NCBI GenBank assembly: GCA_029006795.1
Contig: JAQXGQ010000043.1
Location: 1-36,308 of the forward strand
DNA length: 36,308 nucleotides
Source of the DNA: Clostridiales bacterium
GTDB lineage: Bacteria > Bacillota > Clostridia > Lachnospirales > Lachnospiraceae
Direction of reading: 5' to 3'
The translations under genes and the position numbers were made by a program. The notes beneath the pieces are model-generated. The model ran no database searches and was not told where the DNA came from. It saw nothing but the letters and a program-made list of their open reading frames with translations. Below, piece by piece: positions 4,001 through 28,312 of the stretch (the first letter of the stretch is position 1; every line of letters starts with the position of its first letter).

Positions 4001-4034
4001 AAAAGAAGCCTTCGGATTTTACTCCAAAAGCTTC
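3995..4034 (-). terminator. Rho-independent terminator of the eight-gene amino-acid dehydrogenase operon
   Basis: On the minus strand a 12-bp stem (4034-4023 with 4016-4005, pairs completed by G-U wobbles) with a 6-nt loop is followed by TTTTCTTTTA. It lies 17 bp after the stop of the cyclodeaminase-family gene and marks the end of that operon, separating it from the phosphodiesterase operon. Confidence 0.8.
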
Positions 4035-4050
4035 CACGAATAAAATATTT

Positions 4051-5187
4051 TCAAACCACCATCTGTGGTGTATTCCATAGATTTAACTTTGTTCCAATTC
4101 CTTTTTCAAGAGCATTTCTGTAAACCACAGTTCCCCATGCCACATCCTCTGTAGGCATTCCACCTACAGAATAAATTACAATCTCATCCTCTTTTCTGTG
4201 AACTGGAATATTTCCAAGTAAAACATCCCCTAAGTCATCAATCTGATCCGTTGTCATCTTTCCCTCAGCAATCAAATCCTCAACTCTGACCGCCGGAATT
4301 GGAATCGTATGATAGGCATTCGGCTTCATTTCCTCTTCCCATGCTTCGTACAGCTTGATATTATCCGTAACCGTTCTTGCCCTGTTGATAATAAAATCAT
4401 CGTCAAAACGAAGCGCTGCCGTAGACTCAATAATTGCCCCCGGTTTTATCCACTCTTCTGCAATATATGGATAGAGCGCCGGATCACCGGTTGGTGAGGA
4501 GGTAGAAACAGAAACAATGTCCGAATCTCTTACTGCCTCTTCTATTGTTTCAACTGCATACACATCGACTCCCGGATACTCCGTCTTTACATAATCAATA
4601 AATTTATTCAGTGATGCCTGTCCACGCCCTTTCACCTTTACCGTTTTAAGTGATGGTCTTACTGCCATGGCTGCGGCAAGAGCCGTCTTACTCATAACTC
4701 CCGGTCCCACGATTCCAATCGTTTCTGCATCTTCTCTCGCAAAGGTCTTAAATCCCACTCCCGGAACAGCTCCGGTTCTGTATGCGGATAAAATATTTGC
4801 AGACATAAATGCCAGAGGCGCTCCGGTATCCTTATCGTTGAGTGTCAACATAAGGATAGACCTCGGAAGCCCTTTTTCCTTATTCTCAACATTTGAACCG
4901 TACCACTTCATTCCCGCCATATCAAATTTTCCGCCAAGATATGCCGGCATCGCCATAAATCTTCTGTCAGGCCCGTCTACCGGCATCTCCGGGAATGGCG
5001 AGCTTTCCGGAAACATGACCATACAGCCATGAGAGTTTCCGTTTGCTCCACCCATCCGGTAATTTCCAACCTTCATGAGCTTGAACATTTCTTCCATTGC
5101 TTCTACACAGCCCTTCATATCCTTTACTCCGGCTGCAATCATGTCCTCTTCACTTAAATATAAAAAATCAACTTTTGGATATTCCAT
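4051..5187 (-). CDS. Ornithine cyclodeaminase / mu-crystallin family NAD(P)-dependent enzyme
   Basis: A 378-residue protein of the family that includes ornithine cyclodeaminase, archaeal alanine dehydrogenase, ketimine reductase (mu-crystallin) and pyrroline-2-carboxylate reductase. Visible marks are AGMKWYGS (the family lysine-containing substrate segment), SAYRTGAVPGVGFK, then the Rossmann loop ETIGIVGPGVMSKTAL with GPGVMS in place of the usual GTGxQA. From memory, close relatives in databases may carry the name tyramine oxidase subunit B; I could not check this. The start at 5187 is chosen because AAGGAGGGG precedes it; the upstream ATG at 5232 lies within the permease gene. It is the last gene of the operon, 19 bp after the permease. 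It could deaminate ornithine to proline or reduce the imine made by the operon's dehydrogenase. Confidence 0.85.
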   Translation of the reverse strand: MEYPKVDFLYLSEEDMIAAGVKDMKGCVEAMEEMFKLMKVGNYRMGGANGNSHGCMVMFPESSPFPEMPVDGPDRRFMAMPAYLGGKFDMAGMKWYGSNVENKEKGLPRSILMLTLNDKDTGAPLAFMSANILSAYRTGAVPGVGFKTFAREDAETIGIVGPGVMSKTALAAAMAVRPSLKTVKVKGRGQASLNKFIDYVKTEYPGVDVYAVETIEEAVRDSDIVSVSTSSPTGDPALYPYIAEEWIKPGAIIESTAALRFDDDFIINRARTVTDNIKLYEAWEEEMKPNAYHTIPIPAVRVEDLIAEGKMTTDQIDDLGDVLLGNIPVHRKEDEIVIYSVGGMPTEDVAWGTVVYRNALEKGIGTKLNLWNTPQMVV

Positions 5188-5206
5188 TGTCGTCCCCTCC
5201 TTGAAA

Positions 5207-6604
5207 TTATTTGTTCGCTTTTTTGTGTGCAATCAGGTACAGTGAATTTTCCATTGCCATGACTTCATGAACCGGAATCGGTTTAAACATCGGTCGTTTT
5301 AATTTAAATTTGCACCAAAGCACTGCATATACGGCAAGAAGCAAAAAGATGATTCCATCAATCATAAATATCAGGTTTCTTGTAGCCGGATCACCATCTA
5401 TATTCCAAATCATAAATATATTTCCGATTACTGCTATGACAGGAATGACCGGTCCGAACGGAACCTTAAAGGTTCTAGGCGCTTTCGGAAGTCGCTTTCT
5501 GAAAATTAACACGTTAATATCCGCGATTACATAGGAAACCATCCAGAAGACGATTGCTACCAAAATCATAAATGCAAGTGAGTCACTAGAAGACAATCCT
5601 GTTGCATTTACGACTATCATGATGCCGCCTATCAATAAAATGCCAACATAATATGCGCCTCTCTTGTTTTTCTTTAAAAATATCTCCGGCATCAGGTTAA
5701 TCTTTGCCATACCTGCACACATATAGGAGAGAAAGCTGATAGCAGAATTTACGGTACTTATGACTGCAAACACGGAAACCAGTATCATCCACAGCGAACC
5801 GGCATATCCCAACAGAGAATTGCCATACAGAATATGCGGAGAAGCACTTGCCGCCAAATCCGACCAGTTTGTATAACGCCCCATCCCTATTACAACAAGT
5901 ATCTGCATGACAAGGATGATAAGCAGACTTAACACCATTCCCAGCGGAACATTTTTTCTCTCATTTTTTACGTTCTTAGAAATCGGAATAACAAATTCGC
6001 TTCCCAAAAACAGGAAAAACGCCAGACCTAAAAGTCCAAAGCAATCCGAAAATGAAGAAGCCATATTCATTGTCTGACTTACCGTTTCACCCGTTCCAAG
6101 TCCTAATATTCCAAGCACTCCCATGATAACCAGAGATAAAATCAGTCCATAGGCAACAAAATTCTGAATTTTCGCAAACATGTCTATTCCCATAAGGTTT
6201 GCAATAATGAGCACAATCAAAAGAAGTATGCAGAAAACGCTTGACGGAATTCCGGTATCAAACACAGCATTTATTGCATTTCCAAACATGGCACATTCAA
6301 CGGAGCCTGCAATTGACTGACAAACAATATATCCCCCGACCATTGTTACGATTGTTACAAACGGCCCGATTCCTGCCAAAGTGTATTGGGCAAGTCCGCC
6401 TGTAAGATTTGGCATAACCGCATTCAGCTCTGCCATACAAAGTGCTGTACAGATATTGATTAAACATGCCAGTATCATCGAAATGATAAATCCTGTACCC
6501 AGTGCCCCTGCTCCCTGTCCTAAAGACATCAGACAGCTTGTAGCAACGATAAGTCCAACTCCGGTTGAGATGACGCTTGGCAGCCCTAGTTTTTTCTCTT
6601 CCAT
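5207..6604 (-). CDS. APC-family amino acid permease
   Basis: A 465-residue membrane protein with about twelve hydrophobic segments and the amino acid-polyamine-organocation look: GVGLIVATSCLMSLGQGAG near the start, corresponding to the glycine-rich TM1 substrate segment, and a C-terminal basic RKRLPKAPRTFKVPFGP loop typical of the family. It would import an amino acid or derivative by proton symport or exchange. A GTG at 6622 is possible, but AGGAG lies 8 nt before the ATG at 6604 (MEEKKLGLPSV). It sits between the PII-like gene and the cyclodeaminase-family gene, so it probably supplies the operon's substrate. Specificity cannot be read from sequence. Confidence 0.88.
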   Translation of the reverse strand: MEEKKLGLPSVISTGVGLIVATSCLMSLGQGAGALGTGFIISMILACLINICTALCMAELNAVMPNLTGGLAQYTLAGIGPFVTIVTMVGGYIVCQSIAGSVECAMFGNAINAVFDTGIPSSVFCILLLIVLIIANLMGIDMFAKIQNFVAYGLILSLVIMGVLGILGLGTGETVSQTMNMASSFSDCFGLLGLAFFLFLGSEFVIPISKNVKNERKNVPLGMVLSLLIILVMQILVVIGMGRYTNWSDLAASASPHILYGNSLLGYAGSLWMILVSVFAVISTVNSAISFLSYMCAGMAKINLMPEIFLKKNKRGAYYVGILLIGGIMIVVNATGLSSSDSLAFMILVAIVFWMVSYVIADINVLIFRKRLPKAPRTFKVPFGPVIPVIAVIGNIFMIWNIDGDPATRNLIFMIDGIIFLLLAVYAVLWCKFKLKRPMFKPIPVHEVMAMENSLYLIAHKKANK

Positions 6605-6651
6605 AATCTTCTCTCCTATCACTTTATATTTCCCCTAGCTGTTCTTAACAT

Positions 6652-6999
6652 CTACTTAAGTGCGTCTGCTCCCTCTTCTCCGGTTCTTACCCTGATGACA
6701 TTCGAAAGCGGTGTCACAAAAATCTTTCCGTCTCCGATATGCCCTGTATAAAGTTCTTTCTTGATGGTATCGACAACCTTCTCTATCATCTCATCCGCCA
6801 CAACAATAATAATCATCTGTTTTGGAAGCAGTTCCATTTCCGGATTCTGTTCTGCCTCATACTCGAAGGTTCCTTTCTGTACTCCGCAGCCAATCGCCTG
6901 AACTACGGTCATTCCGCTTACCCCGAGCTTACTAAGTGCTGTTTTTAAGTTGCTAAGTCTGTTCATGGATGTTACTACTTCAATTCTAGAAAATCCCAT
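6652..6999 (-). CDS. PII-family (GlnB/GlnK-like) signalling protein with divergent T-loop
   Basis: A 115-residue protein of PII length. The C-terminal signature TGHIGDGKIFVTPLSNVIRV and the RTGEEG segment that follows are canonical for nucleotide binding, and VQKG followed 14 residues later by LPK brackets a T-loop of normal length. Within the loop the sequence TFEYEAEQNPEMEL replaces the usual one, and the position of the uridylylated Tyr51 aligns with Glu. It would form a trimer sensing ATP/ADP and perhaps 2-oxoglutarate and control a partner, possibly the adjacent permease as GlnK controls AmtB (inference). AAAGGAGG precedes the ATG. Location inside a catabolic operon, not beside amtB or glnA, is unusual. 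Confidence 0.87.
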   Translation of the reverse strand: MGFSRIEVVTSMNRLSNLKTALSKLGVSGMTVVQAIGCGVQKGTFEYEAEQNPEMELLPKQMIIIVVADEMIEKVVDTIKKELYTGHIGDGKIFVTPLSNVIRVRTGEEGADALK

Positions 7000-7035
7000 A
7001 TCCTTGTCCTCCTTTTGGTATAAATCGGAACTACT

Positions 7036-7878
7036 TCATTCTCCTAAAAAACTTGTTTCCTTTACTTTTGATTTATAGTCCCTTCTCTCAACAAGTTTAA
7101 AATATTTCTTTGGTGTCATCCCCGCATATTTTTTAAAATCTCTGATAAACTGGGGCTGATCATAGTATCCTAATGCCACTGCTGCATCCGTCATCTTATC
7201 AGGAGCGCCATAATTGAAAAATTCAAGCGCCCGCTGAAATTGTATAATTTTACAGAAGATTTTCGGAGAAAATCCCATTTCCTCAATAAAAACTTTGTTG
7301 ATGTACCTGACAGAGTATCCTGTATTTTCCTCAAGCTCCGATACCTTTATCTTTCCATCTGATTCATAAACCATCTGTTTAACAGAAAGTACCAGCTCCT
7401 TCTTGCCATATGGCTTTGCCCGTTTCTTTTCCGCCTTTGTGTATGCTTCAAGAAACACCCGGATTCTCTGATAAAAATCTGTCTCAGCAGCTATTTTTTC
7501 AAGCCACTGCACATCCCCCTTTATAATCTGTTCAAGCGGCACCCGTTTGTCGAAAAGTTCCCTCATTGTGACATCTATCAGTTCCGGCTGAACTCCGGGC
7601 ATAAATCTTACACCGAACACCTCATGGAACTCCGGCCGTTTTTCAATTTTATATTCTATCGGTGTTCCGCAGGCGTATCCTCTCATTTCTGTTCCGTTAT
7701 ACTCGAAAGAGAGGTCGATACATCCATCGGGAACTACCCTCATTCCCTTTGCCCCATTAACATGATAGGTATAGAAATGAGAGATTCCCTGCTTAAGGTA
7801 AATTTCCTGAAAGAAATCATCTGTATCAAATACAAAATACGGTTGTGTTGGTCTTAGTTTATCTTTTTTCCATATCAT
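7036..7878 (-). CDS. AraC-family transcriptional regulator
   Basis: A 280-residue regulator. The C-terminal third has the two helix-turn-helix pattern of AraC proteins: VSELEENTGYSVRYINKVF, then ALGYYDQPQFIRDFKKYAG followed by MTPKKYF. The N-terminal part (FYTYHVNGAKGMRVVPDGCIDLSF) resembles the DUF6597-type sensing domain seen in many AraC proteins. It lies in the middle of the operon, only 3 bp after the flavoprotein stop, and no Shine-Dalgarno sequence precedes its ATG, so it probably depends on reinitiation and is made at low level. It likely controls the operon in response to its substrate (inference). Confidence 0.88.
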   Translation of the reverse strand: MIWKKDKLRPTQPYFVFDTDDFFQEIYLKQGISHFYTYHVNGAKGMRVVPDGCIDLSFEYNGTEMRGYACGTPIEYKIEKRPEFHEVFGVRFMPGVQPELIDVTMRELFDKRVPLEQIIKGDVQWLEKIAAETDFYQRIRVFLEAYTKAEKKRAKPYGKKELVLSVKQMVYESDGKIKVSELEENTGYSVRYINKVFIEEMGFSPKIFCKIIQFQRALEFFNYGAPDKMTDAAVALGYYDQPQFIRDFKKYAGMTPKKYFKLVERRDYKSKVKETSFLGE

Positions 7879-7881
7879 GCA

Positions 7882-9012
7882 TTAAATTTTAGCTTTAAAT
7901 CTATCATAACGCAAGTCATACAAATCAACCGTTGTCTTTCCGGTTGTGATAAGCTCCGCTAACTGATCTGCTGCACCCGGTGCAATACCAAAACCATGTC
8001 CGCTGAAGCCACATGCTAAAATAAGTCCCGGTACTTCCTCCACCTTTCCAAGAACAGGTACACCATCCACGCACTTATCCATCCAGCCTGCCCAGGTACG
8101 GACAATCTTAGCATCTGCAAGGTCCGGGAAATATTTTATGATTCCACGGCAGATACATGGAGCTGTTTTCGAATAACAGATTGGTGTTCCGTTATCCTTC
8201 GTGAAACCTTCAAGTCCCGAAGAACCGCCAAATACAAAGGAGCCGTGTTTTGTCTGATGTCCATAGAAATCTGCCTCTGCGGTTCCAAGCATCTGGTCAA
8301 ACATATGCGGTTCTGCCTCTGTTACAAGTGCTTCAAGAGACGCTAACTGCATTGGAATGTCTATTCCAATTGTTCCGGCAATCGCACGACTCTCATATCC
8401 AGCAGCAAGAACAACTGTTTCACCTTCATATACATTTCCGGATGCACAAATTACTTTCCGAAGAACGCCCTTCACCTTTTTAAGTTCCACAACCTGCTCT
8501 CCTGAAATGAAATGTACTCCCATCTTTCTGGCTGTCTTATAATATCCAAGAGTTGTTGTAAGAGGATTTGCATGACCATCCGTAGGACACCAGCTGGCAC
8601 ATGTAACCTCCTCCGAAAGATATGGATTGATACAGCGTACTTCATCTCCATCAATCATTTTTACATCAAGACCAACCTTGACCGCACGCTCCGTCAGTCC
8701 TGTCAAAATCTGTTTGTGTTTTTCTGTTTTTCCAAGACGAAGATTACCGTCCTGATGATATTCACAATCAACTTCAAGTTCTTCTGAAAGGGTCGGCCAG
8801 AAATTTTTGATTCCATACATGACAAGCGGAAGCTCTCTGGGGTCTCTTCCTGACTGACGGACTCCTCCGCCGTTTCTGCTGGAACCGCCATTTCCAAAAT
8901 GGTCTGAACCCTCTAAGCAGATTACGCTTGTCCCTCTTTTTGCAAGGTAATAACTGATTGCACAGCCAATGATACCTCCACCAATTACTACTACTTCTGC
9001 ATTTTTACTCAT
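7882..9012 (-). CDS. FAD-dependent amino-acid/opine dehydrogenase catalytic subunit (DadA/glycine-oxidase fold)
   Basis: A 376-residue D-amino-acid oxidase-fold flavoprotein. The N-terminal dinucleotide-binding loop VVVIGGGIIGCAISYYLAKRG, SSRNGGGVRQSGR near residue 50 and the C-terminal GFSGHGFGIAPGAADQLAEL are typical of the DadA, sarcosine oxidase beta, opine oxidase B and PDH-beta group. It should oxidise an amino or imino acid C-N bond and pass electrons to its Fe-S partners. An upstream in-frame ATG at 9129 lies inside the preceding gene; AGGAGGG fits the ATG at 9012. It overlaps the BFD-like gene by 8 bp. The substrate is not identified; opines, N-alkyl amino acids, proline or D-hydroxyproline are family precedents. 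Confidence 0.88.
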   Translation of the reverse strand: MSKNAEVVVIGGGIIGCAISYYLAKRGTSVICLEGSDHFGNGGSSRNGGGVRQSGRDPRELPLVMYGIKNFWPTLSEELEVDCEYHQDGNLRLGKTEKHKQILTGLTERAVKVGLDVKMIDGDEVRCINPYLSEEVTCASWCPTDGHANPLTTTLGYYKTARKMGVHFISGEQVVELKKVKGVLRKVICASGNVYEGETVVLAAGYESRAIAGTIGIDIPMQLASLEALVTEAEPHMFDQMLGTAEADFYGHQTKHGSFVFGGSSGLEGFTKDNGTPICYSKTAPCICRGIIKYFPDLADAKIVRTWAGWMDKCVDGVPVLGKVEEVPGLILACGFSGHGFGIAPGAADQLAELITTGKTTVDLYDLRYDRFKAKI

Positions 9013-9343
9013 GGTTCTCGCCCTCCTTTGCCTCATTTGCGAAAATGCGCATTTCAATCGGGCGCATCGGAACTCTTGAAGTTGCCGGTTCAAGTTCTGC
9101 CGGAGACACCCCAAGCTCTCTTGCCACAATTCCCTTTACCAGTTTTGCGCAGGTCTGTCCCTGACAAAGTCCCATTCCTGTTCTTAAATATCTTCTGATT
9201 TCCGTCAACGTCCACATTCCTTCGTGAACTGCTTTTCTTATCTCTCCTTTTGTGATTTCCTCACACCGGCAAATAAGCATATCATCATCCGGTCCCGGCA
9301 CAAATGGCCCTATATCTCTTGATCTGTCATTTACTGAATTCAT
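9005..9343 (-). CDS. BFD-like [2Fe-2S] subunit of the dehydrogenase
   Basis: A 112-residue small protein with the bacterioferritin-associated-ferredoxin-type cluster pattern: CRC near residue 26-28 and CQGQTC (C-x4-C) about 30 residues later, giving four ligands for one [2Fe-2S] cluster. Such proteins, or the equivalent domain fused to the large subunit, are the gamma component of proline and opine dehydrogenases. The last 25 residues are a proline/arginine-rich tail (SRVPMRPIEMRIF) that may dock to a partner. It lies 15 bp after the large flavoprotein gene and overlaps the catalytic subunit gene. Confidence 0.85.
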   Translation of the reverse strand: MNSVNDRSRDIGPFVPGPDDDMLICRCEEITKGEIRKAVHEGMWTLTEIRRYLRTGMGLCQGQTCAKLVKGIVARELGVSPAELEPATSRVPMRPIEMRIFANEAKEGENHE

Positions 9344-9358
9344 ATTGCATCCTCCCTC

Positions 9359-10936
9359 TTATTCTGCCTTAAAGAATCTTGCTTTCATTGCAAATTCTTT
9401 CGGTACTCTCATCGTAAGCAGATTTGTCTTATCGTATGCTTTTATACTCTTAACCGAAACTACCTCTGCATCACAAACCTTTTTACCGTTTCTTCCAAGA
9501 GCAGCTCCCTTTGTTCCTGCCTCCGGAAGCGGGAGAAATTCATAAGGAATCGTTACCGTTGCCGTGCCATCACCGCAATCCTCATCTACAAGGAAAATCG
9601 CCTGACCGGAGCAGCTTGCAACGCACATGCCACAGTTAATACACTCTGAGCCTTCCACTACAATCGGAAGTGATGTAATATTAGCACCGATGGATATGCA
9701 TCCTTTCGGACACGCATCCTGACATGGATTGCAGGGAATATTCTGTGTACATTCCATAACCGGATGGATCCCAACCTTATGCGTCACCCCTGGAAATCTT
9801 TCAATTTCATCATCTGCAACATATCCATACTTAAGGAGGCTTGTAGAAATATCAATTCCCTCCTCTGTCTTTTCAATTGCTTTTCCCCTGTTCTTCGGAG
9901 CAAACATACCCTGACGCAGTCCATCAAGGGCTTTATCTAAAGCTGAAAGCTCTGTATCTAATTCTTCTTTTTCGATGTATCCTAAATATTCTGCCGCTGC
10001 AATTCCTGCCATACGACCTTCAATCATTGCTGAGCTTGCTTCTTCAATACCTGATACATCACCTGCTACAAATACTCCCGGAAGCGAAGTTCTTCCATAG
10101 GTATCACAAATTGGCACCTGTCCGCCACGTTTCGGGTTATCCTCCATTTCGCAGCCTGCCATCTTAAGAAGCTGGGACATCGGAGAAAGACCAACCGCAA
10201 GACAAATGGTATCCACATCAAAATGCTTTTCCGTACCCGGTATAAATTTAAAACTGCTGTCAGCCTCTGCGATTGTAACACCTGTGACACATTCGTCTCC
10301 TTCTGCCTCAACAATTGTGTGTGAAAGATAGAACGGAACTCCGGTTCTTGCAACCTTTGCTGCATGAACCCCGTAGCCGCCAACACGCGGAGCGGCATCA
10401 ACAAGCGCCACAACCTCGCAACCACACTGCATCAGCTGAAAGGACACAACCAGTCCTACATTTCCGGAACCAAGCATCAAAACCTTCTTTCCCGGAAGAA
10501 TACCATGCAGATTCATCATGGTCTGTGCTGCTCCCGCACCAATCACTCCCGGAAGTGTCCAGCCTGGGAAAGTTACCATATTCTCTGCTGCTCCTGTTGC
10601 AATAATGATGGCATCTCCCTTATAATGATGGATTTCCTCTCCAATTCTTACAACGATTTCTTTGTCCTGATAAAGACCAATTACTGTTGCATTCAGTACA
10701 ACCTGTACTCCTGCCTCATCTGCCTCAGCAAGAAGCTGCTGACCAATTACAAACCCTCTGACCTTCGCCCGGTGTTCCTTTGAACCAAAAAACTTATGTA
10801 TCTGTTTAAAAAGCTGTCCGCCCGGCTTTTCATTTTCATCGAATACTACTACATTCAGCCCTCTTTTTGCTGCCTCGATCGCTGCAGATAATCCCGAAGG
10901 GCCTGCACCTACTATAATCAAATCATATCTTTTCAT
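9359..10936 (-). CDS. NAD(P)/FAD-dependent oxidoreductase subunit with two C-terminal [4Fe-4S] motifs
   Basis: A 525-residue large subunit. It starts with an FAD Rossmann loop LIIVGAGPSGLSAAIEAAKRG, has a second nucleotide loop KVLMLGSGNVGLVVSFQL, and the FAD-closing motif GVFVAGDVSGIEEASSAMIEG. After about residue 400 comes a two-cluster ferredoxin domain: CTQNIPCNPCQDACPKGC and CINCGMCVASC. This matches the alpha subunits of opine oxidase, sarcosine oxidase-like and Thermococcus-type PDH enzymes, but with an added ferredoxin tail of the type used for NAD(P)H or ferredoxin electron exchange. It probably channels electrons from the catalytic flavin to NAD(P)+ or ferredoxin. It lies 19 bp after the small [2Fe-2S] gene. 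Confidence 0.87.
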   Translation of the reverse strand: MKRYDLIIVGAGPSGLSAAIEAAKRGLNVVVFDENEKPGGQLFKQIHKFFGSKEHRAKVRGFVIGQQLLAEADEAGVQVVLNATVIGLYQDKEIVVRIGEEIHHYKGDAIIIATGAAENMVTFPGWTLPGVIGAGAAQTMMNLHGILPGKKVLMLGSGNVGLVVSFQLMQCGCEVVALVDAAPRVGGYGVHAAKVARTGVPFYLSHTIVEAEGDECVTGVTIAEADSSFKFIPGTEKHFDVDTICLAVGLSPMSQLLKMAGCEMEDNPKRGGQVPICDTYGRTSLPGVFVAGDVSGIEEASSAMIEGRMAGIAAAEYLGYIEKEELDTELSALDKALDGLRQGMFAPKNRGKAIEKTEEGIDISTSLLKYGYVADDEIERFPGVTHKVGIHPVMECTQNIPCNPCQDACPKGCISIGANITSLPIVVEGSECINCGMCVASCSGQAIFLVDEDCGDGTATVTIPYEFLPLPEAGTKGAALGRNGKKVCDAEVVSVKSIKAYDKTNLLTMRVPKEFAMKARFFKAE

Positions 10937-10955
10937 CCTCGCGTCCTCCTATTTC

Positions 10956-11282
10956 CTACTGCTTATCAAATGGTTCTGCACCAACACCGTATTGTGTCTG
11001 AACCTTCATACCGGCTTTCAGTGGTGTGATACAGGTTCTGACATTTGGTACCCCATCCACTACCATGACACAGTCCGTACATCTGCCGATTGCACAGAAG
11101 ATTCCGCGAGGTTTATGTTCTTTTTTGGTATATCTGTGAACCATAAGTCCGGCTGCTTTCAGTGCCACTGCAATTGGTTCTCCCTCATATCCCTGAACTT
11201 CTTTTCCGTCAAATGTAAATGTAACCGGTGTTCCTTTTTCCTGAACTCCGAGTATCGGATGTTCTGCTATTCTCTCTGCCAT
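10956..11282 (-). CDS. Plant-type [2Fe-2S] small subunit (HcnA/OoxC-like, Fer2_4)
   Basis: A 108-residue protein with the cluster pattern CAIGRCTDC (C-x4-C-x2-C) followed by RTC about eleven residues later. This is the Fer2_4 type found at the N-terminus of sarcosine oxidase alpha and as a separate small subunit in HCN synthase and hydroxyproline dehydrogenase systems. The preceding sequence VTFTFDGKEVQGYEGEPIAVALKAAG is the family beta-grasp start. It is the first gene of the operon; AAGGAAG lies 8 nt before the ATG. It likely completes the four-part dehydrogenase. Confidence 0.86.
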   Translation of the reverse strand: MAERIAEHPILGVQEKGTPVTFTFDGKEVQGYEGEPIAVALKAAGLMVHRYTKKEHKPRGIFCAIGRCTDCVMVVDGVPNVRTCITPLKAGMKVQTQYGVGAEPFDKQ

Positions 11283-11329
11283 AATTTATACTTCCTTTCA
11301 TACATTAATTTAGCGATGTCGTGCTTATG

Positions 11330-11375
11330 AAAAAAAAAGACGTCTAAACCAATCATATTTATTGGTTCAGACGCC
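11330..11375 (-). terminator. Strong terminator between the exporter gene and the dehydrogenase operon
   Basis: On the minus strand a 15-bp stem (11375-11361 with 11353-11339, two G-U pairs) with a 7-nt loop is followed by nine T residues. It lies about 80 bp after the EamA stop and 48 bp before the first dehydrogenase gene. The operon promoter must therefore lie in the 48 bp after it, or the hairpin acts as an attenuator for read-through. Confidence 0.85.
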
Positions 11376-11457
11376 TTTGTCCGTTTGTTGATAGATAAAT
11401 TGTATGCGTTATGGCTATATAAAAATTGTAAAAATCGGAACAACTCATTTCATACCT

Positions 11458-12324
11458 TCACGAAGTAACTGCCGGTTTTTTAGCTGCCTGCCTTACATTA
11501 TAAACGGTTGCACCGCCTACTACTAAAACTGCTCCAAGAAATGCTGTTTTTCCTACGGTCTCACCACAAAATACCGCCACCAAAAGCGGATTTAAAATGG
11601 GTTCAATCGTTGAGGTCAGTGACGCTGCCACAGGAGAAACCTTATCTAGTCCTTTAGATAAGAAAATATAGGCAAACCCAAACTGAACGACTCCCAACAG
11701 GATAATAAATACCCATGCCTCTACGGAATGGTCTGACTCCGTAAAATAAGACGGAACTCCCACTATCATACTAAAAACATTGCTTATCAACAGGGAAGAT
11801 TCGAAATCCGCTCCCGGGAAGCCTTTCATCAGCATTACCAATGCGTAATTAAATCCCGAAAAGATTGCTAGAACATCTCCCACAATGCCTCCGCCACCTA
11901 AGGATTCAAAGAAAAAGCACAGAATACCGCAAAATACAACGGCACAAGCAAGGACAGCATCTTTTCCCGGTTTTTTCTTATATAAAATCCACAACAACAG
12001 TATCACAAAAATCGGTTCCGTAAACTGCAGTACAATGGCATTTGCCGCAGAGGTCATTTTTGTTGCCGTCACAAAAGTAAATGCCATCACCGTATTGAAG
12101 ACTGCTCCAAATATTACCGATTTATTGCAGACAAAACGTCGATGGTTCAACATCATATACCCCGCAATCACTATTGTGGAAAATATACTGCGCATCCCCT
12201 GTATTGTCACGGAATTCCATGAAATAGACTTAATCAGCACACCGCCCGTGCTAAAGCATATGGCAGAAAGCAGCACATAAATCGTTCCCTTTAAACTCTC
12301 TAAATTTAAATTTTTATCTTTCAT
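11458..12324 (-). CDS. EamA/DMT-superfamily transporter
   Basis: A 288-residue membrane protein with about ten hydrophobic helices in two homologous EamA repeats (LSAICFSTGGVLIKSIS in the first, FIILLGVVQFGFAYIFLSKG and SPVAASLTSTIEPILNPLL in the second). The drug/metabolite family exports metabolites, often amino acids. An earlier in-frame ATG at 12390 lies inside the preceding gene; GGAGG precedes the ATG at 12324, which overlaps the anion transporter stop by 4 bp (ATGA), so the two are coupled. The substrate is unknown. Confidence 0.88.
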   Translation of the reverse strand: MKDKNLNLESLKGTIYVLLSAICFSTGGVLIKSISWNSVTIQGMRSIFSTIVIAGYMMLNHRRFVCNKSVIFGAVFNTVMAFTFVTATKMTSAANAIVLQFTEPIFVILLLWILYKKKPGKDAVLACAVVFCGILCFFFESLGGGGIVGDVLAIFSGFNYALVMLMKGFPGADFESSLLISNVFSMIVGVPSYFTESDHSVEAWVFIILLGVVQFGFAYIFLSKGLDKVSPVAASLTSTIEPILNPLLVAVFCGETVGKTAFLGAVLVVGGATVYNVRQAAKKPAVTS

Positions 12325-13630: not shown

Positions 13631-14782
13631 ATGGACGAACCACTGAAACTGCCCGTCACAAATGAATACGGCTACTATGAGATACGTTTGGAAAGTATCG
13701 GCGGTCTTGGCGCGAACCTATGCGGAAAAATGTTAGGGGAATTAGGTGCCCTGTACTTAAACCTCAACTCTTTGAGTTTTTCCAGCTACGGTTCCGAAAA
13801 AAGAGGCTCACCAGTCAAAGCCTATATCCGCTGGTGTAAAAATACAAAACCCCTTCAGGTCAACAGCCCTGTGACCAAACCTCACTTGCTGGGCATCTTC
13901 CATGAAGGACTGATTTCCTCCTACCCGGTATTAGAGGGTATCTCAAAGAATGCAAAAATAGTCTTAAATACCTCTTTATCAGCAGAAGAAGCGGCAAAAA
14001 AATACCATATTAATGCAGGAACCCTCTATTGTATTGACGCTCTTTCCATTGCTATGGAGTGCAAATCCCGTATCAATATGGTAATGCTCGGCGCCCTTGC
14101 GAAGGCATCCGGCTTTATTCCTTTCGAAATGGTAGAGAAGCTTTGTAAAGATACCATCGGAAAAAAATACCCGAACCTGATAGAAGCTAACTTGAATGGT
14201 GTCCGGCTTGGGTATGAGAGAACTTCTTCCTTGGAAATTAGTGCCACGGAAAAAGATATTGAGCGGAAAAACGATTCCACCGAAACCTCTGGAGAAACGG
14301 ATGAGAATTCCGCCTTCCGCAACGATTTCGGTAAAGAGCACTATGTCTGGGGCTACCGAAATGCTCCTATCGGCGGTATTAACGACCGCATCGGAAGTAC
14401 CGTCTCTAATGACCTTGCTCCCTCAAGGGAGGGGTACATTCCTCTTTTTCTGCCGGAAAAATGTATTAACTGCGGACTATGCGACTCTGCCTGCCCGGAT
14501 TTTGTATTCCAATTCTTACCCGGTATTTATAAAGAAAAAGAAGCTATGGTAAACAATGGCTTAGACTATACCCATTGCAAAGGCTGTCTCCGATGCGTGG
14601 CAGTCTGCCCTACCGGTGCCCTAGTCACTGCCTTAGAGCGGGATTATCCCGAAAAGCCTTATGAAAAGAAAAATCGCGATTTGCTGCCTGACGAAATTTC
14701 CTATCAGGAATCCGGCGCAAACTCCTGGATTACCAGTGATTCCTATCTGACAGAAAAAAGAGTGGACGGAGGTGTTTTATAA
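13631..14782 (+). CDS. 2-oxoacid:ferredoxin oxidoreductase, gamma-delta fusion subunit
   Basis: A 383-residue protein. Residues 1-190 are the gamma domain of pyruvate/2-oxoacid:ferredoxin oxidoreductases (IRLESIGGLGANLCGKMLGE and FSSYGSEKRGSPVKAYIR). A charged linker follows (about 190-235). The delta part carries two [4Fe-4S] motifs, CINCGLCDSACP near residue 278 and CKGCLRCVAVCP near 315. The enzyme converts a 2-oxoacid plus CoA to acyl-CoA and CO2, reducing ferredoxin. AAAGGAGA precedes the ATG. The stop overlaps the next start by 1 bp (TAATG). The substrate may be pyruvate or a branched or aromatic 2-oxoacid; sequence alone does not decide. Confidence 0.88.
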   Translation: MDEPLKLPVTNEYGYYEIRLESIGGLGANLCGKMLGELGALYLNLNSLSFSSYGSEKRGSPVKAYIRWCKNTKPLQVNSPVTKPHLLGIFHEGLISSYPVLEGISKNAKIVLNTSLSAEEAAKKYHINAGTLYCIDALSIAMECKSRINMVMLGALAKASGFIPFEMVEKLCKDTIGKKYPNLIEANLNGVRLGYERTSSLEISATEKDIERKNDSTETSGETDENSAFRNDFGKEHYVWGYRNAPIGGINDRIGSTVSNDLAPSREGYIPLFLPEKCINCGLCDSACPDFVFQFLPGIYKEKEAMVNNGLDYTHCKGCLRCVAVCPTGALVTALERDYPEKPYEKKNRDLLPDEISYQESGANSWITSDSYLTEKRVDGGVL

Positions 14783-17145
14783 TGGAAGAAAAAAATCAAT
14801 CTGCATCGATACAACCCGTTGCACAAAAGGTTCTATACGACAGCGGAAATGAACTTGCCGCTTATGCCGCAAAACAAATCAATTATCATGTAATGGGTTA
14901 CTATCCCATCACTCCTTCCACCCAGATTGCAGAAAACTTAGACCTTATGGGAGCAGAAGGGCTTCATCAGGTAAAGCTGATTGCCGCAGAAGGAGAACAC
15001 AGCGCTGCCGGTATCTGCTACGGTGCATCCGCCGGAGGAGGAAGAGTTTTTAATGCCACCAGCGCCAACGGACTTTTATATGCTCTAGAACAATTTCCGG
15101 TACAATCCGGCACAAGAATGCCTATGGTTATGAACGTGGCATGTCGTACTGTCTCAGGTCCTCTTTGTATCAAAGGTGACCACAGTGATGTCATGTATCT
15201 GTTAAATACCGGCTGGATCATTCTCTTTGCCGACTCTCCCCAGATGGTCTACGATTTTAACCTGATTGCCTTAAAACTAGCGGAAAAAGTAAGTCTTCCC
15301 GTCGTTGTGGCATTTGACGGTTTTTTTACCAGCCATCAGAAACAGAAATGCTTTGTCTTTGAGGACGATAAAACCGTACAGGACTATATCGGCCCCAAAT
15401 TAACCCGTGATAACCCGGACATTTCTGCTTTTGCTAAGGAAACCTCCACCGGAGAAAATTGTTTTTACAGCGTGCTTGATTTCGACCACCCGATTTCTGT
15501 GGGTTCCTATATGAATGAACCGGATATTATCAACAACCGTTACCAGCTTTCTCTTGCAATGGATGAAGCCTACCGGAAACTGCCCGCTTTGTTTGAAGAA
15601 TTTTTCCTGCTCTCCGGCAGAAAACATGACCTTGTCACCGGTTATCAATACGAAGATGCCGATATCCTGCTCTTTCTTCTCGGTTCTTCCTACCACACTG
15701 CTATGGTCGCAGTGGACAAGCTGCGGGAACGGGGCATCAAAGCCGGAGTTGTGACCCTTCATGTGCTGCGTCCTTTTCCAGCCGAAGAACTGCGTCGCAT
15801 CTGTGCCAATGCAAAAACCATCATCGCAGCCGACCGTCAGGACAGCTACGGTGCCGGGGGCGGTAATATGTCCTTAGAACTAAAGGCAGCTCTCCAGAAT
15901 ATGCCGGACATGGATCATCACATCAAGGTACTGTCCCGCATTTACGGACTTGGCGGAAAGGATTTCTATGTGGAGGATGCCCTTGCTCTCTTTGAAGAAG
16001 CCATTTCCGGCTCAGCAAAGGATTTCGAATATTACGGTGTTACCCCCGGCACAACGGAACACTCTGTTTGCACCGCCGATAATTCCGGGCATGGTATCAA
16101 GCAGCCACAGTATTTCGCTCCGCTGACAAGGGAAGACACCGTAAAAGGTATTACCACCTGCACCTTTGACCACGAACAGGGAAAAATGGTAGTAAAAGGC
16201 GGTCTTTTAAAGGATGCCACCGCCATGCCAAAACGTCTTGCTCCCGGACACGGTGCCTGCCCCGGTTGCGGGATTCCTATCAATCTAAACCTGCTTTTAA
16301 TGGGAATTGAAGGAAATGTTGTTCTGCTGTTTCAGACCGGTTGTGGCATGGTTGTCACCACCGCCTACCCAAAAACCGCATTCCGCATTCCTTACCTTCA
16401 CAACCTGTTTCAGAACGGTGCCGCCACCCTAAGCGGTCTTGTGGAAGTTTTTCACGAAAGACAGCGGCGCGGGGAATACCCAGAAGGCGATATTACCTTT
16501 ATTATGGTCAGCGGCGACGGCGGTATGGATATCGGCATGGGTTCTGCCATCGGCACTGCCTTAAGAAACCATCACTTGATTTTGTTTGAGTATGACAACG
16601 GCGGCTATATGAACACCGGCTATCAGCTTTCCTACTCTACACCTATGGGTGCTAAAAGTTCCACCTCCCATTTAGGTAAATCTCAGTACGGAAAAACTTT
16701 TTTTCACAAGGATATGCCGGAAATCATGGCGGCAACCCATCTTCCCTATGTGGCGACGGTAGCGGAAAGCAATCCTGGTGACTTTATCAAAAAAGCCGCA
16801 AAAGCCGCCGCATACGCAAAAGATTTCGGCACGGCTTATGTAAAGGCACTTTCTGCCTGTCCCTTAAACTGGGGCGATAACCCAAAAGAAGAGCGCAACG
16901 TAATTTCTGCGGCTGTAGATTGCTGTTATTTTCCGCTCTATGAAATAGAACGCGGCATTACCGCACTAACTTATGACCCAGAGAAAAACAAAAAGAAAAT
17001 CCCAGTCTCTGAATGGCTTGGTATGATGGGCAGAACAAAACATCTTGTCAAAGCAGAATACGCTTCCATCACCGACGACATTCAGGCAGAGGTAGACCGC
17101 CGCTTCGCCCGATTGAAGGCCAGAGCAGAACACCCATTATTGTAA
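14782..17145 (+). CDS. 2-oxoacid:ferredoxin oxidoreductase, alpha-beta fusion subunit
   Basis: A 787-residue fusion. The first half is the alpha domain with YYPITPSTQIAE and AEGEHSAAG; its CoA/TPP-pyrimidine region ends near residue 400. The second half is the TPP-binding beta domain: GHGACPGCG near 490, QTGCGM near 519, SGDGGMDIGMGSAIGTALR near 577 with the downstream asparagine in EYDNGGYMNTG, and ALSACPLNWG near 691. The cysteines of CPGC, TGCG and SACP fit the four ligands of the proximal [4Fe-4S] cluster in PFOR. All catalytic elements are present. With the upstream gene it gives a complete enzyme from two polypeptides, an arrangement unlike one-chain PFOR or four-chain POR. Confidence 0.89.
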   Translation: MEEKNQSASIQPVAQKVLYDSGNELAAYAAKQINYHVMGYYPITPSTQIAENLDLMGAEGLHQVKLIAAEGEHSAAGICYGASAGGGRVFNATSANGLLYALEQFPVQSGTRMPMVMNVACRTVSGPLCIKGDHSDVMYLLNTGWIILFADSPQMVYDFNLIALKLAEKVSLPVVVAFDGFFTSHQKQKCFVFEDDKTVQDYIGPKLTRDNPDISAFAKETSTGENCFYSVLDFDHPISVGSYMNEPDIINNRYQLSLAMDEAYRKLPALFEEFFLLSGRKHDLVTGYQYEDADILLFLLGSSYHTAMVAVDKLRERGIKAGVVTLHVLRPFPAEELRRICANAKTIIAADRQDSYGAGGGNMSLELKAALQNMPDMDHHIKVLSRIYGLGGKDFYVEDALALFEEAISGSAKDFEYYGVTPGTTEHSVCTADNSGHGIKQPQYFAPLTREDTVKGITTCTFDHEQGKMVVKGGLLKDATAMPKRLAPGHGACPGCGIPINLNLLLMGIEGNVVLLFQTGCGMVVTTAYPKTAFRIPYLHNLFQNGAATLSGLVEVFHERQRRGEYPEGDITFIMVSGDGGMDIGMGSAIGTALRNHHLILFEYDNGGYMNTGYQLSYSTPMGAKSSTSHLGKSQYGKTFFHKDMPEIMAATHLPYVATVAESNPGDFIKKAAKAAAYAKDFGTAYVKALSACPLNWGDNPKEERNVISAAVDCCYFPLYEIERGITALTYDPEKNKKKIPVSEWLGMMGRTKHLVKAEYASITDDIQAEVDRRFARLKARAEHPLL

Positions 17146-26209: not shown

Positions 26210-28312
26210 TTAATAAAATTCAATCTTCTTCATTAACTGATAATTCTTTGTGCGGTCAAAGGAACAGATTCCGGCCCTGTCTGCCACATAGAAAACATCC
26301 CCCACATAAATACCCCTGTAATTGTCCGAAGAGAAGTTTCCGGCCACTTTTTCTGTCATAAGATTTACAAACTTACCATCCTCCCAGGAAAACAATAGAT
26401 AATCAAGACTGTTGTTTTCATAGTCCTCAGTGGTAAATCCCAACAGATTTTCTTCGGCATCCGCCAGCACGCATTTGTAATCGTAAAGTGCCTGACTATA
26501 ATCCACATTTTTCAGTACCAGAGTCTTAATTTCCTTTAAATCGGCAGGGTTTGAAATATCAAACATAGTAATCTTTAATCCCTCACGGACACCACTGTCC
26601 GGATCTGTTTCATATCCAATTCCCACCAACTTATCTTCCCCCCAGAAATGCAGATACTCAGAAAATCCCGTTATTTTCAGTTCACCCACAATCTTTGGAG
26701 CTGTATCATCCGATAAATCCACTGCAAACAGGGGGTCTGTATTCCGGTAGGTAACAAAATATGCCATATCCCCAAAATACCTTGCCGCATAAATTTCCTC
26801 TCCTGTTGCAATATCCTCAATTTTTCCGGTAAGTTTTAAGTTTTCATCAAAAAGGTACAACTGATTGGTACTCTCTTCACCCGTAAAATTGATGTCAGTG
26901 GTCAATACACGAAGTTTTCCCTGATACTCATTAATGGCAAACGTATCTCTTACCTCTCCATTGACAGATACTGCATCCACCGCATTAATTTTCCCATCCT
27001 TTAAACTGAATTTTGCAATCTGGGTAATAGATTTCCCTTTTGTATATTTCTCCTGATAAAGGTAAGCTGCCCGGGTGCTGACATAGATTTCCACATATTC
27101 GTTTAAAATCAAAGTGTTATCCACAACCTCGTCCGGCTTATTCACATTCATTGCGGATATTAGAAGTCCCTGATTTCCTTCCTCAGAAACATAAATGCAG
27201 TCTGCAGATATTGGTTTTTCATTTACCAGAGGTATCCATCCACTCAAATTTTCCTCTTCCACTGCCTGCTTTTTTGCCAATGCCGGAACTCCTATGCTTT
27301 TATCTGTAAACAAATAAATAATATCTCCAATTTTTCTTGAGGTATGATAATAACCATCCTGCGTCATGCTGCCGGATAACTTCGGTTTTTCAGGATTGGT
27401 AATATCATAAGTCAGAATCTCTGTCTCCATATCGGAGGAAAGATAATACACATCATCGGTTTCTTTCCCGCTTTCTTTTTGTAGTCCGGTGGACTCTTTC
27501 TGGACAATCAGATTTAAAATTCCGTTATCCACATACATTTCTATAATGCTGTCGGAAGTACTTTGCAAAGACACTGGAATTTCTCCCGCCACTTCTAACG
27601 CTCCTTCTCTGATATCCGTAATTATGACTCTGTTTCCGCTGACAGTATAAATATAAGAGCCATCTGTTTTGATAATATCACTCTCATCCACCCCTTCCGT
27701 CTGAAGATTCGTCTTAGAATAATTTTCTTCTCCGGAGGCAGTATCACTATCGACACTGTCTGTAGCAAATTCCTTCTCGGAATATTTTATATTATCTACA
27801 CCACTCTCTGCCGATGTACTCTCTCCTGACATCTCCTCTTCTACACCAATCCCAGTAGTGACAGCAAAATCATAGACAATATCCTCTTCTTTTCTTAGTG
27901 TCTCCTGTTTTTTTAATAAGTCATAAATTTCATCATAATTCTCCGCTACCGTATAGACATCCCCTGCATTCTGCTTTGCGGCCAAACCATTGCTGTCCTC
28001 CATACTGCATTCTTCTTCACCTGCTCCGGCAGTTAATGCACTGCTTTCTGCACTATCACTTTCTGCCCCATTTTGGTATAAATTCCATGCCTGCATGCCT
28101 GCTGCACTGCAAACAAGCAATACCACTGCTGCTGCTGCAATTCTGCTTCCGTATAAAAAGCCCCTGCTGCGTCGTGCTTTCGTCTCTGTCATCCTCTGAT
28201 GTTCACTCTGTTTTTTTAACTTTTCTTTGATTGCTTCTGGCTTGATGCTCTCCGGTATGGGTTCTTCCATAGCCGCATCTTTTATTTTTTCGAACACATC
28301 TTTTTCTGTCAT
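26210..28312 (-). CDS. Membrane-tethered beta-propeller protein, probable anti-sigma partner
   Basis: A 700-residue protein. Residues 1-50 are cytoplasmic and charged (MTEKDVFEKIKDAAMEEPIP), a single membrane segment follows near 52-75 (IAAAAVVLLVCSAAGMQAW), then a Ser/Glu-rich stretch to about 200, then a large extracytoplasmic domain of the PF09826-type beta propeller (NLQTEGVDESDIIKTDGSYI, VSGNRVIITDI, and repeated blade-like segments such as MAYFVTYRNTDPLFAVDLSD). It lies 21 bp after an ECF sigma gene. The topology is that of a transmembrane anti-sigma factor with an outside sensor, although no classical zinc anti-sigma motif is visible. A ribosome binding site GGAGG is present. Confidence 0.82.
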   Translation of the reverse strand: MTEKDVFEKIKDAAMEEPIPESIKPEAIKEKLKKQSEHQRMTETKARRSRGFLYGSRIAAAAVVLLVCSAAGMQAWNLYQNGAESDSAESSALTAGAGEEECSMEDSNGLAAKQNAGDVYTVAENYDEIYDLLKKQETLRKEEDIVYDFAVTTGIGVEEEMSGESTSAESGVDNIKYSEKEFATDSVDSDTASGEENYSKTNLQTEGVDESDIIKTDGSYIYTVSGNRVIITDIREGALEVAGEIPVSLQSTSDSIIEMYVDNGILNLIVQKESTGLQKESGKETDDVYYLSSDMETEILTYDITNPEKPKLSGSMTQDGYYHTSRKIGDIIYLFTDKSIGVPALAKKQAVEEENLSGWIPLVNEKPISADCIYVSEEGNQGLLISAMNVNKPDEVVDNTLILNEYVEIYVSTRAAYLYQEKYTKGKSITQIAKFSLKDGKINAVDAVSVNGEVRDTFAINEYQGKLRVLTTDINFTGEESTNQLYLFDENLKLTGKIEDIATGEEIYAARYFGDMAYFVTYRNTDPLFAVDLSDDTAPKIVGELKITGFSEYLHFWGEDKLVGIGYETDPDSGVREGLKITMFDISNPADLKEIKTLVLKNVDYSQALYDYKCVLADAEENLLGFTTEDYENNSLDYLLFSWEDGKFVNLMTEKVAGNFSSDNYRGIYVGDVFYVADRAGICSFDRTKNYQLMKKIEFY

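Follow-up and report, generated by a model that had tools for sequence, protein, structure and literature searches.

The stretch of DNA analysed here, 36,308 nucleotides of contig JAQXGQ010000043.1 from a Clostridiales bacterium (assembly GCA_029006795.1; 2,584,989 bases in 181 contigs, 86.73% complete) and called the window below, carries on its minus strand (11282 to 4051) an operon of eight genes in one direction, G1 to G8: four redox subunits (G1-G4), an AraC-family regulator (G5), a PII protein (G6), an APC-type permease (G7) and a protein of the ornithine cyclodeaminase (OCD) fold that belongs to the family NF004848 (G8). From its gene content, a cluster of this kind probably imports and oxidises an amino compound in many anaerobes, and we hold the chances to be evenly balanced that it would constitute a dedicated scavenging module for such a compound, with regulated uptake, oxidation and nitrogen release. 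The idea of a dedicated module rests on the conservation of gene content while gene order was shuffled, on the occurrence of NF004848 with two types of DAO-fold enzyme, and on the linkage of PII to one clade of permeases. More tentatively, and at somewhat less than even expectation, we propose that a PII protein related to an Amt partner has switched clients: it would have lost the residue for plugging Amt and the basic residue that assists 2-oxoglutarate binding, kept the ATP/ADP pocket and come to gate an APC permease as an energy sensor, the permease and dehydrogenase forming a dedicated regulon with a near-invariant operator and a leader attenuator, common to Bacillota and Spirochaetota.

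Conservation was assessed in two samples. In an order sample of 196 genomes scanned for NF004848 the family was found in 11, with G4 adjoining in 10 of these (the window's own genome counted) and the full eight-gene order of the window in three of the 11 loci. Ten aligned NF004848 proteins served to scan GTDB, where at least 548 candidates were confirmed; the best 80 of these were taken as loci, so that this sample leans to the window's relatives; the closest named relatives among them, by the NF004848 gene, are Lachnospiraceae metagenome-assembled genomes. A DAO-fold match lies within 9 kb of NF004848 in 67 of the 80 loci, and all of G1-G4 are present in 60, an APC permease in 69, an AraC gene in 58, a PII gene in 45 (two of these proteins, in L135 and L140, are of the ordinary type) and a Rid gene in 27. 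Where the flanks reach 6.5 kb or more on each side (39 loci), the corresponding counts are 35 (G4), 34 (G1-G4), 35 (APC), 35 (AraC), 19 (PII) and 17 (Rid). Carriers of the cluster include Lachnospira, Ruminococcus callidus, Lacrimispora, Clostridium and Anaerostipes, and further Acetobacterium, Desulfosporosinus, Halanaerobium and Treponema. An earlier reading of the window, made from its sequence only, had held that its claim of novelty would fall if gene order were not conserved in relatives; content is kept, but order is not, as the 60 complete clusters show 32 different orders and only nine share that of the window. It had also held that the claim would fall if the flavoprotein branched inside a known enzyme clade with an identified substrate, and the flavoprotein passed no curated NCBIfam cut-off among the best 25 models. 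With the gene set conserved and no such cut-off passed, the claim survives both challenges, even though the order varies.

The PII gene follows its permease. In a tree of 77 permeases one clade holds 46 rows, 44 of them with PII adjoining, and none of the 31 rows outside it has PII beside it; this requires three changes on the tree as against 25.1 for shuffled labels, and over 43 loci (five were left out) the correlation of PII and permease distances is 0.855, compared with 0.566 for PII and G4 and 0.562 for PII and G8. G6 scores 93.6 bits against PF00543 (cut-off 25). Residues T29, K58, G87, K90, R101 and R103 each occur in all 47 operon-type rows and Gln39 in 42 (Glu in five), but residue 9 is Ser in 29, Gly in 15, Asp in two and Lys in one, so that a basic residue is absent from 46 of 47, and Arg47 occurs in none; in an AmtB-type set of 25 rows, in contrast, residue 9 is basic in 24 and Arg47 is present in 25. 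Gln39 offers no contrast because the AmtB-type set was picked by a motif demanding it, nor does the uridylylation site Tyr51, which is rare in both sets (1/47 and 2/25). Arg47, at the tip of the T-loop, has been described as crucial for PII insertion into Amt (PMC3198391), Arg9 and Lys58 as 2-oxoglutarate ligands, and Thr29, Gly87, Lys90, Arg101 and Arg103 as nucleotide ligands (PMC8395244). We predict that the operon PII still senses ATP/ADP, binds 2-oxoglutarate more weakly or not at all, and does not plug Amt.

How do these proteins relate to the PII proteins of other genomes? In the class, 117 of 291 genomes gave a PII match, and the best 30 PII loci were used, two of them left unscored because the caller of open reading frames (ORFs) took the other strand. 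Three, the window's among them, adjoin an APC permease and 25 have an ordinary T-loop; 24 of the latter are part of ORFs whose length would allow an AmtB fusion (the two scanned are fusions), and the one single PII adjoins AmtB. The association of an APC neighbour with loss of Arg47 gives a Fisher p of 0.0003 (window counted). The operon resembles GlnK-AmtB in that PII is encoded beside a transporter and keeps its nucleotide pocket, and the nearest non-operon PII proteins are fused to or adjoin AmtB where scanned, whereas Arg47, the basic residue 9 and the Amt partner itself are gone; a GlnK-type Amt regulator was rejected on the grounds of Arg47 and the APC neighbour. The nearest precedent for a PII protein linked to an APC-type transporter is PotN of lactobacilli, whose gene accompanies that of an ornithine/putrescine exchanger and which is said to sense energy state. 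Searches of the open-licence literature found no paper on PotN, on the PII-permease pair or on this operon. The only other PII found in the window's genome, a variant at 2629-2958 of G000:C80:22000-26945 (L207), is encoded immediately behind a gene of the Glt_symporter family; the two PII genes found thus adjoin amino-acid-type transporters, and neither adjoins Amt.

Upstream of the operon lies a 16-bp operator-like box (Table 1). Allowing up to two mismatches, it occurs at 95 sites in the 80 loci (1.19 Mb), 82 of which, in 63 loci, precede an operon-type gene on their own strand by no more than 400 bp; total site counts in five Markov replicates were 5, 2, 2, 0 and 3. A TAnnnT element stands at box start +36 in 66 of the 82. 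The exact 16-mer was found in five of the 196 genomes, four times at the operon and once inside an ORF read as glycogen synthase. In the window's genome there are 17 sites with up to two mismatches as against three for the reversed control; a wider regulon there was rejected, since nine of the 16 other sites were examined and all nine lie inside ORFs. Fourteen box sites (L072-L102 and others) precede the PII-permease unit, which would give that pair its own promoter; in the window, the 36 bp upstream of PII hold no second box. Nor was the box, at up to two mismatches, seen within 400 bp upstream of the OCD gene in nine proteobacterial loci, and an operator shared with Proteobacteria was rejected, the single two-mismatch site in those loci not being upstream of a listed gene. 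Rahnella and Pantoea (L147, L151) have a common sequence, TGTCGCAAATATTCAATACAGCC, upstream of NF004848, which is perhaps the operator of the proteobacterial cassette.

It had been supposed that terminators bound the operon on both sides. The downstream hairpin stands, but the upstream one is not the outer boundary, because the conserved promoter (box and -10) lies above it and the hairpin is therefore in the operon's own leader. By the rule used in this analysis a terminator lies between promoter and first gene in 50 of the 82 leaders, compared with 2.0 expected. A second element, C-ARRGNN-G, occurs in 59 of 83 leaders (9.2 expected, at most 15 in 50 shuffles) as the loop of a hexaloop hairpin; in its stem, 55, 57 and 41 of the 59 can form pairs 2, 3 and 4 (45.9, 40.0 and 25.3 expected), pair 5 being no better than chance (23 against 19.4). 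Its covariation score is 0.512 against 0.211 (sd 0.023; 0/500 shuffles; 53 distinct 16-mers) and drops to between 0.019 and 0.145 when the 16-mer is slid, with the qualifications that loop positions A1 and G4 were fixed by the choice of segment and that related sequences inflate such scores. In the window this hairpin overlaps the 5' arm of the terminator, as would be expected of an antiterminator, and that overlap, with the position of the terminator between promoter and G1, argues that the upstream hairpin is probably an attenuator.

A short-stemmed hexaloop hairpin with A1 and G4 in its loop, sharing sequence with a terminator, recalls the antiterminators bound by ANTAR proteins, whose targets are defined by two such hairpins (PMC3369931). 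At least one occurs in 48 of the 82 leaders (8.0 expected), but two in only four (0.2 expected; one of the two L142 sites was lost from this count to a name clash), and an ANTAR target was rejected because the second hairpin is mostly missing. This genome (87% complete) yielded a single ANTAR protein, whose gene directly follows glnA, weakly suggesting a nitrogen link for the operon; an ANTAR-type leader upstream of glnA was looked for in this genome and not found. No match at the Rfam gathering score was obtained in the leaders of the window, L089, L099, L110 and L112, and a relaxed search of 11200-11560 gave two chance-level matches only.

As regards the enzyme, the sequence-only reading proposed a multi-subunit amino-compound dehydrogenase with uptake, parallel to the opine, D-hydroxyproline and archaeal L-proline dehydrogenases, and both proposals are supported. 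Its narrower inference, that an opine, an N-alkyl amino acid or a cyclic imino acid is the substrate, is not supported. The best solved relative of G4 is 1y56_B, an archaeal L-proline dehydrogenase subunit (205 bits, E 1.2e-59), followed by sarcosine oxidase beta subunits (140 bits) and L-amino acid deaminase (131); sarcosine oxidase SoxB/SoxA was rejected, as scores of 132 bits (TIGR01373) and 132.2 bits (TIGR01372) are far under the cut-offs of 529.45 and 1164. GxGxxG and Arg-X-Trp, given as marks of the beta subunit in a group that joins 1y56-type proline, D-hydroxyproline and flavin opine dehydrogenases (PMC4575208), are invariant in the 44 aligned rows of G4. All iron-sulfur cysteines are kept as well: four of four in 61/61 rows of G1, whose motif C-X4-C-X2-C-X12-C agrees with the plant-type pattern C-X4-C-X2-C-X11-12-C; C396, C402, C405, C409 and C432, C435, C438, C442 of G2 in 61/61 rows; and four of four in 64/64 rows of G3. 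In G2 an Asp that follows the second NAD strand, likewise kept in 61/61, points to NAD rather than NADP. To judge from fold and cofactor motifs, the redox genes are a split relative of the flavin opine/hydroxyproline/proline dehydrogenases, with which they share a DAO-fold beta subunit, an FAD-binding alpha subunit, a plant-type [2Fe-2S] protein and a second [2Fe-2S] site of the C-X-C...C-X4-C type. They differ from them in that alpha is split over two genes, in the added [4Fe-4S] motifs and in the linkage to NF004848, PII and an APC permease; the C-X-C-X15-20-C-X4-C pattern printed for the alpha subunit in PMC4575208 was not found, the BFD spacing being X32 and on the separate gene G3. In the G4 tree 19 of the 49 inner branches are open, and a very long branch leads to the proteobacterial enzymes. 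Four loci (L061-L064) contain a paralogous G1-G4 group without NF004848 (G4 identity 46-50%), beside ArgE/DapE-type and creatininase-type hydrolases or oligopeptide ABC transporters. The window's own genome has a second G4 copy cut by a contig end (G000:C146:1-5628, L065; C-terminal part 57% identical), followed by genes for a Fe-type alcohol dehydrogenase and a Mem_trans transporter.

G8 passes the curated cut-off of NF004848, a model named "tyramine oxidase subunit B", and the SbnB model ranks second in the NCBIfam comparison. Its best solved relative is 4m54 (E 5e-49), which we take to be SbnB, an enzyme acting on an opine-like substrate, and alanine dehydrogenases come next. In ornithine cyclodeaminase the catalytic Asp is on a loop after the NAD domain; this region of G8 is a gap against 1omo and not against 4m54, and at aligned column 260 of G8 none of the 86 other rows has Asp (one follows at 262-264, where the alignment is uncertain). 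Ornithine cyclodeaminase was therefore rejected as the identity of G8, and of its earlier description as a homologue of that enzyme the fold holds while the chemistry does not. NF004848 proteins keep Arg76, Lys94 and Arg137 in 86/86 and Arg188 in 72/86 (mu-crystallin likewise has Arg at the position equivalent to Arg188); the three invariant residues suggest, by analogy with known structures, that the ligand carries a carboxylate. The functional name of NF004848 stands in thousands of annotations, and no experimental paper behind it was found in the literature searched: no open-licence paper contained the phrase "tyramine oxidase subunit B" or joined ornithine cyclodeaminase with tyramine oxidase, and PMC10850344 mentions tynA and tynB as annotated genes only.

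Proteobacterial plasmids provide a second setting for the family. In six plasmid loci, chosen from the 25 listed of 37 records, NF004848 is always accompanied by a Rid protein and a single FAD oxidoreductase, and in five of six each by an APC permease and by an AraC or helix-turn-helix gene. One of the FAD enzymes was compared with solved structures and is closest to L-amino acid deaminase (E 4.9e-73). These cassettes resemble the operon in joining the OCD-fold subfamily to a DAO-fold enzyme and an APC permease, but the enzyme is a single subunit and no PII gene is annotated in the six. One OCD-fold subfamily thus has two unlike DAO-fold partners, four-subunit in anaerobes and single-subunit on proteobacterial plasmids, and since the one single-subunit enzyme compared is near L-amino acid deaminase, a primary amino group fits at least as well as an opine.

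From the observed gene content, co-inheritance, residue pattern, operator and leader structure we infer the following series of binding events and reactions. The operon would be induced by its substrate: the AraC protein would bind the 16-bp box beside the -35 region and activate transcription, which would end at the leader terminator except when the hexaloop hairpin that overlaps it is stabilised. The permease would import the substrate, opened or closed by its own PII according to ATP/ADP, whereupon G4 would oxidise a C-N bond, with electrons passing via G1-G3 to NAD+ or another anaerobic acceptor. For the resulting imine there are two possible fates, hydrolysis or NADPH-dependent reduction by the NF004848 protein, and the products would be a 2-oxo acid and nitrogen, or the opposite enantiomer. 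The most likely substrates are alpha-amino acids and their close N-substituted relatives.

Which other reactions would fit? Catabolism of an opine or N-alkyl amino acid, in which a secondary amine would be cleaved by G4, giving a 2-oxo acid and an amino acid, and would also be the substrate of the NAD(P)-linked NF004848 protein, would accord with the affinities of G4 to the archaeal L-proline enzyme and of G8 to SbnB, the more so as type-2 opine dehydrogenases are placed near that L-proline enzyme and sponge opine dehydrogenases belong to the OCD superfamily (PMC4575208). We nevertheless think it unlikely, given the likeness of the proteobacterial partner to L-amino acid deaminase and a BFD spacing unlike that printed for opine dehydrogenases. 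Also improbable in our estimation is a D-to-L inversion, in which G4 would oxidise a D-amino acid and the OCD-fold protein would reduce the product to the L form, after the manner of DauA and the OCD-like DauB. DauA makes iminoarginine and DauB makes L-arginine (PMC5619798), so that there too an FAD dehydrogenase is joined to a second enzyme on its product; the operon has in addition four subunits, PII and a permease.

Several observations weigh against a dedicated module acting on an amino acid. No G4 match was found in 13 of the 80 loci, four of which (L076, L113, L131, L138) have full flanks, and three of the 67 "G4" matches are the unlike proteobacterial enzyme. A terminator is missing, by the same rule, from 32 of the 82 leaders, and two PII-clade permeases (L107, L113) are without PII. 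The Rid proteins of the loci lack the equivalent of RidA Arg105 in all seven aligned, whereas the genome's own RidA, encoded elsewhere, has it; PMC5619798 quotes this residue as a criterion for Rid imine deaminases, by which those of the loci are not predicted to be such, and they were rejected as support for an imine step. Finally, aldehyde dehydrogenases near three of the six plasmid cassettes, and a Fe-type alcohol dehydrogenase adjoining the flavoprotein in one relative as well as the L065 copy, would fit oxidation of a primary amine by G1-G4 to an aldehyde that neighbouring dehydrogenases then reduce or oxidise, as would the name tyramine oxidase. With alcohol dehydrogenase matches near only 3/80 loci, no open-licence paper found to back the name, and a carboxylate suggested for the G8 ligand, we consider amine oxidation distinctly unlikely. 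Hardly more credible is a PII without a client, inherited as a passenger of the permease gene: the two permeases without PII would suit it, but the nucleotide-binding residues are fully kept although the T-loop has changed, and PII stays beside the permease while the surrounding order changes.

Scavenging of an amino acid or its close relative by a regulated module remains our preferred account, and its parts differ in novelty. The enzyme varies a known theme, the heteromeric flavin dehydrogenases, and the NF004848 cassette occurs under an unproven name; new here are the link of PII to a permease clade with altered PII residues, the 16-bp operator with its fixed -10, and the probable leader attenuator. 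The PII-permease partnership is perhaps new in itself, and no open-licence paper on the operator or attenuator turned up, in searches aimed at neither. If PII does gate the APC permease, the Amt-type principle of PII-transporter control would hold also for the uptake of amino acids by anaerobes of the gut and rumen, and sister PII proteins that differ at the residues deciding Amt plugging and 2-oxoglutarate binding would constitute a natural experiment. The regulon marked out by the operator and attenuator can be followed by sequence, and these elements offer a direct reporter in a search for the substrate.

Features of the operon are collected in Table 1. The earlier description of eight same-strand genes with gaps of at most 47 bp is borne out by the coordinates: from G1 to G8 the gaps are 19, 15, -8 (an overlap), 3, 36, 29 or 47, and 19 bp, the sixth being 29 bp if the permease starts at GTG 6622 and 47 bp if at ATG 6604. 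Domain searches matched its assignments for all eight proteins.

Table 1. Coordinates in the window of the operon genes and of the associated regulatory elements.
Feature	Position	Strand	Basis
G1, plant-type [2Fe-2S] subunit	10956..11282	-	Fer2_4 domain
G2, FAD/NAD(P)-binding subunit, two [4Fe-4S] motifs	9359..10936	-	Pyr_redox_2 domain
G3, BFD-type [2Fe-2S] subunit	9005..9343	-	Fer2_BFD domain
G4, DAO-fold flavoprotein, putative catalytic subunit	7882..9012	-	DAO domain
G5, AraC-family regulator	7036..7878	-	AraC helix-turn-helix and DUF6597
G6, variant PII protein	6652..6999	-	P-II domain; conserved-residue pattern
G7, APC-type permease	5207..6604	-	AA_permease_2; alternative start GTG 6622
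G8, OCD-fold protein, NF004848	4051..5187	-	OCD_Mu_crystall; 588 bits, cut-off 362
Terminator-like hairpin 3' of operon	4004..4035	-	Hairpin found in sequence
Operator-like box TTCCGATTTTTACAAT	11425..11440	-	Leader comparison of same-order clusters
-10 element TACAAT, fixed distance from box	11399..11404	-	TAnnnT at box start +36
Hexaloop hairpin CGGAC-AAAGGC-GTCTG, possible antiterminator	11368..11383	-	Covariation
Terminator hairpin with T run in operon leader (probable attenuator)	11336..11378	-	One match to its pattern in genome

Elsewhere in the window, a two-gene 2-oxoacid:ferredoxin oxidoreductase (POR with a ferredoxin domain; POR_N/PFOR_II) is encoded near the operon on the plus strand (13631-17145) and could consume a 2-oxo acid product. 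On the minus strand, a 148-residue piece at 24551-24997 matches the C-terminal part of the PALP domain only and is possibly a broken cysteine-synthase-like gene, and at 26210-28312 a 700-residue protein with a Beta_propel domain (PF09826) adjoins a sigma-factor-like ORF.

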